NCBI GenBank assembly: GCA_024742575.1
Contig: JANSYF010000005.1
Span: 1-64,000, forward strand
DNA from: Paracoccaceae bacterium
GTDB lineage: Bacteria; Pseudomonadota; Alphaproteobacteria; Rhodobacterales; Rhodobacteraceae
Direction of reading: 5' to 3'
DNA: 64,000 nt
Shown one piece after another: positions 13,829 to 19,978 of the stretch (within the stretch, counting starts at the first letter, position 1; every line of letters begins with the position of its first letter). The notes under the pieces were generated by a model. It was not told where the DNA came from and ran no database searches. It saw only the letters and a program-made list of their open reading frames with translations. Both the position numbers and the translations under genes were made by a program.

Positions 13829-14691
13829 CCGCGCGCCCCGATCCAGCGCCGTCGCGCCTGAAGTACCGGATGGAGCGGCTGATGTTGACGCCGCTGTTCC
13901 GATTGCTGCTTCGGTTTGGGCTGCCGTGCCTGCTGACGTTCGGGATCGCTAGCTGGTGGCTGTCCTACGATGACAATCGCATGAAGATCATCGACACTTA
14001 TGCCGATCTGCGGTCGCAGGTGGAAAGCCGCCCCGAGTTCATGGTCAACATGATGGTTGTGGATGGCGCGAGCGGCATCGTCGCTGATGGTATTCGCCAG
14101 ATGTTGCCGTTGGATTTTCCGATCAGTTCGTTTGACCTCGACCTCGAAGCAATGCGGGCCACAGTCGTCTCACTGGATCCGGTGAAATCTGCGCGACTTT
14201 ATGTGCGGCAGGGCAACGTCCTGCAGGTCGACGTGGTTGAACGGGTCCCTGTTGTGCTGTGGCGCAACGAGCGTGGATTGCAGCTTTTGGATAACGAGGG
14301 TGTTCTGGTTGGCCCGGCCTTTGTGCGGGCAGATTGGCCGGAATTGCCGTTGATCGTCGGCGATGGCGCCGACGCGTATGTGACCGAAGCGTTAGACTTG
14401 ATTGCGGCCGCAGAGCCGCTTTCCGCGCGTTTGCGTGGTTTGGTACGCATGGGAGAGCGACGCTGGGACGTTGTGCTGGACCGCGACCAGCGCATCATGT
14501 TGCCAGAAACCGAATCTGTGCAGGCGCTGGAGCGTGTAATCGCGATGGATCAGGCAGTCGACATGCTGGAGCGGGATCTTGTGGCGGTGGATTTGCGCTT
14601 GCCGCACAGGCCAACACTTAGAATGACAGGCGGAGCGGTGCAGGAATTGCTCCGCATCCGGGCGATCGAGGCAGGGGAACCAGTGGAATGA
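13816..14691 (+). CDS. ftsQ: cell division protein FtsQ
   Basis: Position between ddl and ftsA; single N-terminal TM and POTRA-like domain. Confidence 0.85.
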
Positions 14692-16022
14692 TCGAGCTAT
14701 ACGAGTCACAGCGGGCTATGCGCAATATGCGCAAGGCGGCGATGCAGCGAGGGGTGATTGCGATCCTCGACATCGGCAGCTCCAAGATTGCTTGTCTGGT
14801 ACTGCGCTTTGATGGAACGGATCGCGCGGTCGAGAGTGACAGTATCGGGTCATTGGCGGGGCAGTCCGGGTTCCGTGTGATCGGTGCCGCAACCACTCGG
14901 TCACGCGGGGTGCGCTTTGGGGAAATCGATTCAATGGGCGAGACCGAGCGCGCCATTCGCACGGCTGTTCAAGCCGCCCAGAAAATGGCCCAGATTCGCG
15001 TCGATCACGTGATCGCATCTTTCGCAGGTGCCGACCCGCGCAGCTATGGTTTGGCGGGCAAGGTTGAAGTCGCGGGCACAACAGTCGATGAGCAAGATGT
15101 GGCGCGTGTTCTGTCGGCCTGTGACGTTCCCGATTTTGGCCATGGGCGCGAGGTACTACACGCCCAACCCGTGAACTTTGCACTGGATCATCGCTCTGGG
15201 TTGATCGATCCGCGGGGGCAGATCGGGCAGGAACTGGCCGCCGACATGCATATGCTGACCGTCGATGCGATGGCGATTCAGAACCTTGCGCATTGTATGA
15301 AGCGCTGTGACCTTGAACTCGCTGGGATCGCCAGCTCGGCCTACGTGTCGGGTGTGTCGGCTTTGGTCGAGGATGAGCAGGAACTGGGGGCCGCTTGCAT
15401 CGACATGGGCGGTGGTTCAACTGGTCTGTCAATCTTTATGAAAAAGCACATGATTTACGCCGATGCGGTGCGCATGGGCGGCGATCACGTAACCAGCGAT
15501 ATTTCCATGGGACTGCAGGTTCCTATGGCCGTGGCTGAACGGATCAAGACTTTTCACGGTGGCGTTGTCGCTACCGGGATGGACGACCGCGACATGATCG
15601 AAATCGGTGGGGATACCGGCGACTGGCACCATGACCGCCGTTCCGTCAGCCGTGCTGAACTGATTGGCATCATGCGCCCGCGCGTCGAAGAGATCCTCGA
15701 AGAGGTACGTGCGCGTCTGGATGCTGCGGGGTTCGAACATCTGCCCAGCCAGCAAATCGTGCTGACAGGTGGAGCCAGCCAAATTCCGGGGCTGGATGGT
15801 TTGGCGACTAAAATCCTTGGTCAGCAGGTGCGCCTTGGACGCCCGATGAGAGTGCATGGTTTGCCACAAGCGGCGACGGGTCCGGGATTTGCCAGCGCTG
15901 TGGGTTTGTGCTTGTTTGCTGCCAATCCACAAGACGAATGGTGGGATTTTGAAATTCCCGTGGACCGTTATCCAGCTCGATCATTACAGCGTGCTGTGAA
16001 GTGGTTCCGCGACAACTGGTGA
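14688..16022 (+). CDS. ftsA: cell division protein FtsA
   Basis: IAILDIGSSKIACLV; ACIDMGGGSTGLSIF; IVLTGGASQIPGL. Confidence 0.95.
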   Translation: MIELYESQRAMRNMRKAAMQRGVIAILDIGSSKIACLVLRFDGTDRAVESDSIGSLAGQSGFRVIGAATTRSRGVRFGEIDSMGETERAIRTAVQAAQKMAQIRVDHVIASFAGADPRSYGLAGKVEVAGTTVDEQDVARVLSACDVPDFGHGREVLHAQPVNFALDHRSGLIDPRGQIGQELAADMHMLTVDAMAIQNLAHCMKRCDLELAGIASSAYVSGVSALVEDEQELGAACIDMGGGSTGLSIFMKKHMIYADAVRMGGDHVTSDISMGLQVPMAVAERIKTFHGGVVATGMDDRDMIEIGGDTGDWHHDRRSVSRAELIGIMRPRVEEILEEVRARLDAAGFEHLPSQQIVLTGGASQIPGLDGLATKILGQQVRLGRPMRVHGLPQAATGPGFASAVGLCLFAANPQDEWWDFEIPVDRYPARSLQRAVKWFRDNW

Positions 16023-16089: not shown

Positions 16090-16554
16090 TCAAGGCTTGA
16101 TGTAGGTGAACCCTTGCATCTGCAAATGCGACAGTTCGGCGACGCCGCTTGGAACGATGTCTTCTTCGAACACGTCGAACAGATCATCCTCGTACGAGAT
16201 GTTCCGACCGCGAAGAGTGTTGTTGCAAACGTGGACCGACACGTTCTGACCTTTCAGTTCTAGAACCTGACCCTGTAGCATTTCGTTTGTCTTGGCCGCA
16301 GCCAGAAGGCCAAGCCCGTTGCCATGCAAGACCAACTTGATCTCCATATTTTCTGCACCAACCGCGTTGATGTGGTTTTGCATGTTGCGTAAGGCGCCAC
16401 GGTACGCTTTGTCCTCTTCGCCGCCGTTGTAATTGATGTGGTACACGACTTTCTGTTTGCCATAACGCTCTTGCGCTTGGCTGTCCGAAGTCGTTGCAAA
16501 GAAGCCGAAAACGGCCATCGCGCAAACCAGCAGCAGTGATGTGAGATGTTTCAT
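16090..16554 (-). CDS. exported DsrE-like protein
   Basis: Signal peptide MKHLTSLLLVCAMAVFGFFATTSDSQAQ; KVVYHINYNGG...AALRNMQNHINAVG...LVLHGNGL...VHVCNNTL typical of DsrE/DsrF-like fold; GGAGG RBS before 16554. Confidence 0.75.
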   Translation of the reverse strand: MKHLTSLLLVCAMAVFGFFATTSDSQAQERYGKQKVVYHINYNGGEEDKAYRGALRNMQNHINAVGAENMEIKLVLHGNGLGLLAAAKTNEMLQGQVLELKGQNVSVHVCNNTLRGRNISYEDDLFDVFEEDIVPSGVAELSHLQMQGFTYIKP

Positions 16555-16673
16555 GTGGTCCTCCCATTTCGTTGGCGGGACGTGTGTACGGCCCGTGACC
16601 CAGCGTGACACAGCGCGACCTTGGGAACACCTCGGGTGAACCATGGGAAGTGCCTGTATTTGCCCGGTGAGAT

Positions 16674-16694
16674 ACCTAGGCTTGCAGTCTAGGT
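16674..16694. promoter_or_regulatory. lux-box-like dyad ACCTAG-N9-CTAGGT
   Basis: Perfect 6-bp arms upstream of the DsrE-like gene, just past the stop of the LuxR-type regulator. Confidence 0.5.
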
Positions 16695-16700
16695 TGGGCG

Positions 16701-17933
16701 TCAGGACGCCAAAGCCACCAATTGTGTTGATGATCGCGCGTCGAATTTCTTAAGCAGATTGGCGCGGTGAAATTCGACCGTCTTAGGGCTGATCTTGAGT
16801 TGCTGCGCGATCTCTTTCGACGAATACCCTTCGGTGATGTAGTCAAGGATTTGGCGTTCACGCTTGGTCAGGCTGGGCATGTCTCTGTCAGGTGCGGAAT
16901 TCGGTATCGCGTCGTTTGATATGTGATCCGAACCTGGTCTAAGGACACGCAAGGCGAGTGCAGCAACAATGGTAAGACCAGCCGCGACAATTGCGATCAG
17001 CGGCCAGAGTCCTGCCAGCCTTTGCCATGCGCTTGGGTTTTCGACCCGGAGCGCAAATGCCTGTTTGAGATCAATGGCGGCATGGTAGGCAACAGGCGAG
17101 GACCAGTAATTGCGAAGTCGCCCGTCTTGTGCCAATGGACTGTCTTTCGCGTTTAGCAGAGCGATCGTCACGGCGTCGCGCAACGCAGGGTCAACGTTGG
17201 CCAGAGCCGCAAAAGGCCATTCCGGATACAGCCTAGTGCTAAGCATATCAGGGTGCGCAAAGGTGACGTTGGTGTTGAGAAAGGTGAAATCGCTTTTCGA
17301 ATAGGTGCCCTCGGCGAGAACACGCTCCATCAGTCCGCTGCGTATGATCCCGATATCGGCTTGTCCTGTGGCCACGCGGTCAATAACGCCGTCCATCGGA
17401 AAGCCAACGAAGACCAAAGATTTCGTATCGGTGAACAGATTAATCTGGGCATTATCGAATTCACGCCAGGCCAATTGAAAGCCGCCAAACGCCATTTTGT
17501 CGATGGCCGCCACGGTCTTGTCGCGTGCATCGCTCAATTCCTCGATGCCGGAATTCGCGCGCGCGATAATCAGGCTGCCGAATTCAGCCGAAAAACGACC
17601 GTCGCTCCGCTGGACATTGCGAGTCGCAAGGACGCTCATTGCGTGGTCTTTTGAAAGATCGACAAAATGCCCCGGATTCGTGAGAAGAAAATCAATCTGC
17701 CCACCAGCAATCTGTGAAGATGCAGATGCCAAGGTCATGGGAACAAGCTCAAATTCGTGGGTCGGCACCGAGGCGTCAAGATACCTTTTCAGTCCGTGCC
17801 ATCGTACCAGCGCATCTTCGTATCCAAGATAGGCAAGCACGCCAATCCGGGCTTGCGACACGGCGGATTGCGCGTCGCAAGGTACGGGACCAAACCCGGC
17901 AAGACACACGGCCAATAGGGCTGCCCTGAGCAT
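16701..17933 (-). CDS. membrane one-component regulator: PhnD/TtrS-like periplasmic domain + TM + LuxR-type HTH
   Basis: N-terminal signal peptide; ARIGVLAYLG...GQIDFLLTNPGHFVDL PhnD-like; LIAIVAAGLTIVAALAL TM; LTKRERQILDYITEGYSSKEIAQQLKISPKTVEFHRANLLKKF LuxR HTH. Confidence 0.8.
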   Translation of the reverse strand: MLRAALLAVCLAGFGPVPCDAQSAVSQARIGVLAYLGYEDALVRWHGLKRYLDASVPTHEFELVPMTLASASSQIAGGQIDFLLTNPGHFVDLSKDHAMSVLATRNVQRSDGRFSAEFGSLIIARANSGIEELSDARDKTVAAIDKMAFGGFQLAWREFDNAQINLFTDTKSLVFVGFPMDGVIDRVATGQADIGIIRSGLMERVLAEGTYSKSDFTFLNTNVTFAHPDMLSTRLYPEWPFAALANVDPALRDAVTIALLNAKDSPLAQDGRLRNYWSSPVAYHAAIDLKQAFALRVENPSAWQRLAGLWPLIAIVAAGLTIVAALALRVLRPGSDHISNDAIPNSAPDRDMPSLTKRERQILDYITEGYSSKEIAQQLKISPKTVEFHRANLLKKFDARSSTQLVALAS

Positions 17934-18355: not shown

Positions 18356-19978
18356 ATGACATTGAACCTTTCGGTGCCCGGACAGGAAGAATTGAAACCC
18401 CGCATCACCGTGTTCGGTGTGGGTGGTGCTGGCGGAAACGCGGTCAACAACATGATCGACAAGTCCCTTGAGGGCGTCGACTTCGTGGTGGCCAACACAG
18501 ATGCGCAGGCCCTACAACAGAGCCGGTCGACCAGCCGAATTCAGCTTGGTGTCAAAGTAACCGAAGGTTTGGGCGCAGGTGCACGGGCGACGGTCGGTGC
18601 TGCGGCAGCTGAAGAAAGCATCGAACAGATTGTCGATCACCTTGCAGGGGCGCACATGTGCTTCATCACAGCCGGCATGGGCGGCGGCACCGGGACAGGT
18701 GCTGCGCCGATCATCGCACAGGCGGCACGCGAGCTTGGCGTTCTGACAGTGGGTGTCGTCACCAAGCCGTTCCAGTTCGAAGGCAACAAGCGGATGAAGC
18801 AGGCCGAAGAGGGTGTCGAAGCACTCCAGAAGGTCGTCGATACGCTGATTATCATTCCGAACCAGAACCTGTTCCGTCTGGCCAATGAAAAAACCACGTT
18901 CACCGAAGCGTTCTCCATGGCGGATGACGTTTTGTACCAAGGTGTTAAGGGCGTGACTGACCTGATGGTTCGTCCGGGCCTTATCAACCTCGACTTTGCT
19001 GATGTCCGCGCCGTGATGGACGAGATGGGCAAAGCGATGATGGGGACAGGCGAAGCCGAGGGCGAAGATCGCGCAATTCAGGCAGCCGAAAAGGCCATCG
19101 CAAACCCGCTCTTGGACGAAATCAGTCTGCGCGGTGCAAAGGGTGTTCTTATCAACATCACCGGCGGTCACGATCTTACGCTGTTCGAACTGGACGAAGC
19201 CGCAAACCGCATCCGCGAGGAAGTGGACACCGACGCGAACATCATCGTGGGCTCCACACTGGATGACAGCATGCAGGGCATGATGCGCGTGAGTGTCGTG
19301 GCAACCGGTATCGACGCTGTTGACGTCCATACCGAAGTGCCGGTTCCGCGTCGTTCGCTGGCGACACCACTGACCCAAACGACGCGTGTGGAAGAAGCGC
19401 AGCACGCCGAAAAGCTAGCTCCTCAACCCGAGCAGGTTGCCGCACGAAGCGCGGAAGAACCGTCGCTTTTTGATGCAGAACACAAAGCCGCAGACGAACA
19501 GGTGGAACCCATCTTCCAAGACACCGGCGTGCAACAAGAGGCTGTAGATGACGACGGTCTACCGCCGCCCGCCTACCGTCCGCAGGTCGCCGAATTCAAT
19601 CCGCGCGAAGACAGCATTGAAGCCGACCCCGAGCAATTCGTTGCCCCGCGTGCCCCGGCACCGGGTACACCCAGCGCAGAAGCGTTGGCCCGTTTGCAAG
19701 CGGCTGCTTCTCGCGCCCGCCCTGCGCCGGGAAGTCGCCCGAACAACATGCAGGTCGAACAAGAACCAGCTGACAGCGAGCGCCCTCGTTTCGGGATCAA
19801 TTCCTTGATCAACCGAATGACGGGACACAGCCAGCAACCTGAAGCTCAGGTACGTCGCACAGCGCCGCCGCCGGTCCAATCCAGCGCAGCAGCTCCGGCA
19901 CGGGCACCCGCGCCGGAAGCGGATGAAGATCAGGAACGGATCGAAATTCCCGCTTTCCTGCGCCGCCAAGCGAACTAA
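18356..19978 (+). CDS. ftsZ: cell division protein FtsZ
   Basis: [38 protein letters not shown] tubulin signature. Confidence 0.97.

Follow-up and report, generated by a model that had tools for sequence, protein, structure and literature searches.

The window analysed here, a 64,000-nucleotide stretch of a Paracoccaceae genome, carries between ftsA and ftsZ a pair of minus-strand genes: a one-component membrane regulator and, downstream of it, an exported DsrE-like protein that we refer to as DsrE1. The features of the locus are as follows.

14688..16022 (+): ftsA, a flank outside the system (Pfam)
16090..16554 (−): dsrE1, encoding an exported DsrE-like protein of 154 aa with an invariant Cys110 (Pfam, orthologue alignment, model pLDDT 92)
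16628..16638 (no strand): a further inverted repeat, CACCCGAGGTG, conserved without change in four loci of the genus; a possible second operator
16675..16680 (no strand): CCTAGG palindrome between regulator and dsrE1, a candidate operator (enrichment), within CCTAGGTATCTCACCGG at 16664-16680 (−)
16701..17933 (−): PhnD-like one-component membrane regulator, 410 aa (profile matches, AlphaFold2 model, orthologues)
16707..16874 (−): LuxR/FixJ-type HTH (GerE) of the regulator, residues 354-409 (Pfam, structural relatives)
16944..17006 (−): transmembrane helix of the regulator, residues 310-330 (AlphaFold2 model, hydropathy)
17136..17843 (−): periplasmic PhnD-like (PF12974) domain of the regulator, residues 31-266 (Pfam, fold matches)
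17868..17933 (−): signal peptide of the regulator, about residues 1-22 (hydropathy peak at residues 1-19; cleavage site approximate, placed without a dedicated predictor)
18356..19978 (+): ftsZ, a flank outside the system (Pfam; start 18356 probable)

The regulator gene starts at an ATG preceded by the Shine-Dalgarno sequence aggagg. In Pfam, its product matches Phosphonate-bd (PF12974, E 2.9e-32) at residues 31-266 and GerE (PF00196, E 5.7e-22; 77.5 bits against a curated cut-off of 23.5) at residues 354-409, and the hydropathy profile has just two peaks, the N-terminal signal and residues 313-331. The AlphaFold2 model (pLDDT 79) places an alpha/beta binding-protein fold at residues 26-298, followed by a helix (310-330), a disordered linker (332-351), and the HTH (357-409). 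Neither Pfam nor the model revealed a kinase or receiver domain; after the sensor come just the transmembrane helix, a linker of 20 residues, and GerE. These data confirm the architecture proposed in the original prediction—signal peptide, PhnD-like domain, one transmembrane helix, and LuxR-type HTH, with neither kinase nor receiver—and the domain order and fold model likewise support its one-component logic. By its predicted topology, the regulator is bitopic, with an N-out sensor and a cytoplasmic C-terminal HTH. The sensor domain has its best fold matches in the oxyanion-binding proteins PtxB, ArrX, PhnD, and AioX, and the top NCBIfam match of the periplasmic part (residues 26-269) is TtrS (E 5.4e-45). 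For the HTH, EsrB and FixJ were the top solved relatives; a derivation from TtrR was not supported, since SsrB- and FixJ-type profiles scored higher.

We found no description of a PhnD-TM-LuxR regulator in the open-licence papers searched, and two known groups invite comparison. ToxR-like membrane-integrated one-component regulators (CadC, ToxR, TcpP) combine an N-terminal winged HTH with a C-terminal periplasmic domain (PMC5936718). They share with our regulator the single chain, the one transmembrane segment, the periplasmic sensor, the membrane-tethered DNA-binding domain, and the lack of a phosphoacceptor. The order is inverted here, however, with the sensor at the N terminus and the DNA-binding domain at the C terminus, and the regulator further differs in having a LuxR-type instead of a winged HTH, a PhnD-like sensor, and a signal peptide. 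The second group, TtrS/TtrR and ThsS/ThsR (PMC5408782), resembles it in the PhnD-like periplasmic domain, the transmembrane segment, the LuxR/FixJ-type output HTH, and the sulfur context. Unlike these pairs, the regulator unites sensor and HTH in one chain without kinase or receiver, lacks a cysteine pair (see below), and is partnered with an exported DsrE rather than a tetrathionate or thiosulfate reductase.

The partner gene does encode an exported DsrE-like protein on the same strand, as predicted, but the start originally assigned to it (16644) lies 90 bp too far upstream; the ATG at 16554, which follows GGGAGGACCAC, has a good Shine-Dalgarno sequence and agrees with the orthologues. DsrE1 matches DsrE (PF02635, E 1.1e-9; 39 bits against a Pfam cut-off of 22.7), its model (pLDDT 92) matches the folds of MTH1491, ST0148, and YchN (1l1s, 2pd2, 1jx7), and Cys110 is invariant across 30 exported homologues. 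It shares the fold and one invariant cysteine, putatively sulfur-carrying, with the DsrE/DsrF-like family (PF02635; DsrE3A of Metallosphaera, YchN, MTH1491), whereas its signal peptide, its export, its predicted control by a sensor of its own, and its position outside any dsrEFH, tusBCD, or shdr cluster set it apart from the known members. DsrE3A takes a thiosulfate group onto its cysteine, forming Cys-S-thiosulfonate with tetrathionate (PMC4175335), and by analogy, thiosulfonate formation is a plausible model for the chemistry of Cys110. On a Pseudochrobactrum plasmid (L230:2351-5432), we observed a row of DsbD, a DsbA family protein, and an exported DsrE with a two-component system adjoining, an arrangement that suggests a periplasmic thiol-redox link for exported DsrE proteins.

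To follow the pair across genomes, we used two samples, 298 genera of the family and 399 genomes from across the phylum. The one-component regulator occurred in nine genomes of the former, in which the other PhnD-domain matches were longer proteins, mostly kinases, several of them adjoining ttrBCA. In the phylum-wide sample, the only full one-component match besides the window came from another alphaproteobacterial family (G611), and a single-sequence scan of genome contigs returned nothing beyond same-genus orthologues and HTH-only matches. DsrE1 orthologues (E below 1e-43) were present in 21 of the 298 genomes, well apart from DsrE2, a distinct exported subfamily about 26-33% identical to DsrE1. 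Co-occurrence of regulator and DsrE, which the original prediction had named as its own refuting test, was pronounced: six of the nine regulator genomes encode DsrE1, versus 15 of the 289 others (Fisher p 4e-6), and in all six the two genes are adjacent, with the regulator first. Order and strand are constant in eight genera, reaching into a second alphaproteobacterial family, and at unrelated loci (carriers being the window genus, G159, G070, G182, the genus of G062 and G443, G178, G379, and, from the other family, G611), and the pairing holds down to about 33-53% sensor identity. Elsewhere, the regulator is followed by a divergent DsrE of the DsrE2 type (G207) or is partnered with a different exported protein, an SBP_bac_11 binding protein (G157, G359), while one regulator (G144) has neither DsrE1 nor SBP_bac_11 as a partner; as two regulators have the binding protein and one has neither, dsrE1 is not the sole target. 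We also noted a 619-aa variant (G268, L046:1289-3148) composed of a PhnD domain, a transmembrane segment, a stretch of about 200 aa that matches nothing in Pfam, and a LuxR HTH; it precedes an SBP_bac_11 binding protein, as do the regulators in L042 and L161.

In the window, the pair is transcribed towards ftsA, in convergent orientation, and away from ftsZ, in divergent orientation. That it splits these two genes, as the original prediction had stated, is real here but not general, for the gap is empty in two same-genus genomes (186 bp and 175 bp). A third (G476, L174:2096-3148) carries an unrelated antisense gene for a membrane protein-like product of 350 aa in the same place, and the gap has therefore been filled more than once in the genus. 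Roughly 170 bp adjoining ftsZ can be aligned between occupied and empty sites, arguing that the ftsZ-proximal region was left undisturbed and that the pair sits just behind ftsA. Given the empty and otherwise occupied sites, and the location of the pair elsewhere in other genera, we rejected a functional role for the site and regard the location as incidental. In G178 (L045:9440-11640), the pair also lies in the dcw cluster, albeit between ftsW and murD, and adjoins copper-oxidase-like and cupredoxin-like genes.

The space between the two genes was searched for shared words without a preset motif, comparing 2080 6-mers in the 200 bases before dsrE at 11 non-redundant sensor-dsrE loci. The palindrome CCTAGG, a rare word, was the most enriched, exceeding even Shine-Dalgarno words, with 7 of 11 loci against 0.09 expected (binomial p 5.6e-13, which overstates the case as the loci are partly related). 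The fairer comparison is between loci with and without the sensor: CCTAGG precedes dsrE1 at six of ten one-component loci and, where there is no sensor, at none of 15 (Fisher p 0.0012). Two of the four one-component loci without it carry CCCCGGGG or CCCAGGG instead, one locus has CCTAGG much closer to dsrE than the others do, and none of 13 regulator genes has the palindrome at its own 5′ side. Within the window genus, CCTAGG precedes CTCCCGGG, which reads CTCACCGGG in the window, and the inverted repeat CACCCGAGGTG comes next. The extended motif has a single exact match in the window genome, the regulator-dsrE1 site itself; near matches occurred at the control rate, and a wider regulon in this genome was rejected. 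Control of the sox operon through CCTAGG was likewise rejected, as the sox promoters of this and three other regulator genomes contain no such site. Scans for sigma-70 promoters and terminators gave scores no better than the shuffle level. The distribution of the motif therefore marks dsrE1 as the local target, and CCTAGG, a candidate on sequence grounds, is the predicted operator linking regulator to dsrE1. This shared operator-like palindrome lends support to the proposal that the regulator may control the DsrE-like gene.

How does the pair relate to sulfur metabolism? The original prediction had tied DsrE folds to sulfur chemistry, and this link is borne out by exported DsrE relatives inside or beside sox operons. 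DsrE1 adjoins soxXYZABCDE in G189 and G171, is found together with SoxV, SoxS, and SoxW in Indioceanicola, and has a more distant relative directly after soxB in G927. Another relative, in Methylorubrum, lies among DsbD-, DsbA-, YeeE-, persulfide-dioxygenase-, and rhodanese-like genes (named by eye from sequence), in what looks like a sulfide-detoxification-like cluster. Several Rhodobacteraceae (L103, L104, L105, L106) have DsrE2 encoded with soxB on one side and soxC on the other; its position corresponds to that of Sulfitobacter orf2, named a "DsrE family protein", which also lies between these two genes, is reported without a function (PMC11034169), and is likewise an exported-type DsrE of the Rhodobacteraceae. 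DsrE1, in contrast, is a distinct subfamily mostly outside the sox operon: 13 of the 15 dsrE1 genes without a regulator do not adjoin sox genes, and in the window genome the sox operon has no dsrE, with dsrE1 encoded apart from it. At the level of genomes, 20 of 21 with DsrE1 (p 7e-4) and all nine with the regulator (p 0.015) have SoxB, versus 189 of 298 overall. A separate arrangement was seen in G853 (L185:4642-11508), where a TtrS-like kinase and its regulator are divergent from soxY-soxZ-soxA-(210-aa gene)-soxB, a candidate for two-component control of a sox operon.

A two-component counterpart of the pair exists in another family (G742, L164:8287-12012), where a PhnD histidine kinase, a REC-LuxR regulator, DsrE1 (an orthologue at 50%), and a SoxS-like thioredoxin (37%, E 3e-25) are encoded in a row. 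Here, CCTAGG lies at the stop codon of the REC-LuxR regulator, near its position in the one-component loci. The best reading is that one chain in the window performs what a TtrSR-like kinase/regulator pair performs in this relative. A tree built from 63 PhnD domains gathers all 16 one-component sensors into one group among the kinases (support 91/87); it does not resolve which relatives, the kinase of G742 and those of the TtrS/ThsS type among them, are nearest to that group. Collapse of a kinase-regulator circuit into a single chain is the likeliest history; this direction is favoured because kinases are far more widespread, the tree itself being unrooted.

The pocket of the sensor bears on the ligand. 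PhnD-like domains are in use in TtrS and ThsS (PMC5408782), and kinases of this type adjoining ttr (L047-L049, L197, L201, L202), phs-like (L194, L195), or sox genes (L185) have in common a cysteine pair aligned with regulator residues 200 and 229—a feature derived in the present analysis and not from the literature—and carry N or G at position 238 in most cases. Members of the one-component clade, like the G742 kinase, show R198-x-G200, no cysteine at 229, and E238 in their place, so the regulator pocket may differ from that of the TtrS/ThsS-type kinases. This weakens the TtrS-type ligand analogy of the original prediction, and none of the one-component loci inspected has tetrathionate or thiosulfate reductase genes adjoining. 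Sensing of "reactive sulfur", also put forward there, is unlikely to proceed through thiols of the sensor, since the mature periplasmic domain contains no cysteine at all. As for the cysteine pair itself, it marks PhnD-type kinases adjoining tetrathionate, thiosulfate-like, or sox genes and could aid ligand prediction; its use for telling thiosulfate from tetrathionate was rejected, as both ttr- and phs-like-associated kinases have it. For the regulator, the likeliest ligand is a sulfur oxyanion, a best guess made because of the partner gene.

Taken together, we consider it rather probable that, in some marine bacteria, the bitopic regulator senses an oxyanion, most likely inorganic sulfur, and controls dsrE1 through a CCTAGG-type palindrome, with DsrE1 handling sulfur near the SOX system. 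In this model, the periplasmic PhnD-like domain would bind a small oxyanion such as thiosulfate or sulfite, and the signal would pass through the single transmembrane helix and linker to the LuxR/FixJ-type HTH, probably via changed dimerisation. The membrane-tethered HTH would then bind the palindrome just past the regulator's own stop codon and control transcription of dsrE1, perhaps by switching it on. Exported DsrE1, in turn, would probably act alongside SOX in the periplasm, accepting or handing over sulfane sulfur or thiosulfate groups.

The same architecture and local control of dsrE1 could also serve a ligand other than sulfur—phosphite, phosphonate, phosphate, arsenate, or another oxyanion—with DsrE in a general periplasmic thiol/redox role. 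We hold this to be an unlikely alternative: the closest solved folds (PtxB for phosphite, ArrX for arsenate, PhnD, AioX) bind phosphite, phosphonate, or arsenate, the cysteine pair of TtrS/ThsS-type sensors is missing, and no recognised sulfur genes adjoin several of the kinases that share the R-x-G and E of the regulator, but TtrS is the top family match of the sensor domain, the partner's family sits in sox operons, all nine regulator genomes have soxB (p 0.015), and phosphonate or phosphite uptake genes were not noticed adjoining the regulators. If the regulator were a genuine TtrS/ThsS-type sensor of tetrathionate or thiosulfate from which only the kinase has been lost, the best profile match and the PhnD-like domain shared with TtrS and ThsS (PMC5408782) would both be explained; the exchange of the cysteine pair and of N/G at 238 for G200, a non-cysteine residue at 229, and E238 makes this improbable, as does the separation of the clade from TtrS/ThsS kinases in the tree, although the deep branching there is unresolved. 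Finally, that the genes merely hitch-hike together while the HTH regulates something else would fit a cassette found at unrelated genomic sites and regulators with other partners, yet is improbable given that only loci with the sensor have CCTAGG between the genes, that no sox promoter of four regulator genomes has it, and that the pairing is kept to about 33-53% sensor identity, even across one- and two-component versions.

For the preferred reading, a sulfur-oxyanion regulator of dsrE1, the wider meaning is as follows. As a biosensor part, a periplasmic oxyanion sensor that consists of one protein and brings its own promoter would be convenient, and the one- and two-component versions adjoining orthologous dsrE genes are a natural experiment on the simplification of two-component circuits. 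The sensing of external sulfur by regulators of sulfur-oxidising bacteria is a process that the literature calls poorly understood (PMC11582611); for the DsrE gene present in some roseobacter sox clusters, the function is listed as unknown (PMC11034169). The regulator-dsrE1 pair links both gaps: its sensor is self-contained, its operator predicted, and its target a single exported DsrE. There is an even chance, in our estimate, that the regulators represent a hitherto undescribed, inverted class of membrane-spanning one-component proteins, collapsed from a TtrSR-like circuit and controlling an exported DsrE via CCTAGG; roseobacters that oxidise sulfur would then possess, in addition to SoxR/SoxT, a switch leading directly from extracellular sulfur to DNA.
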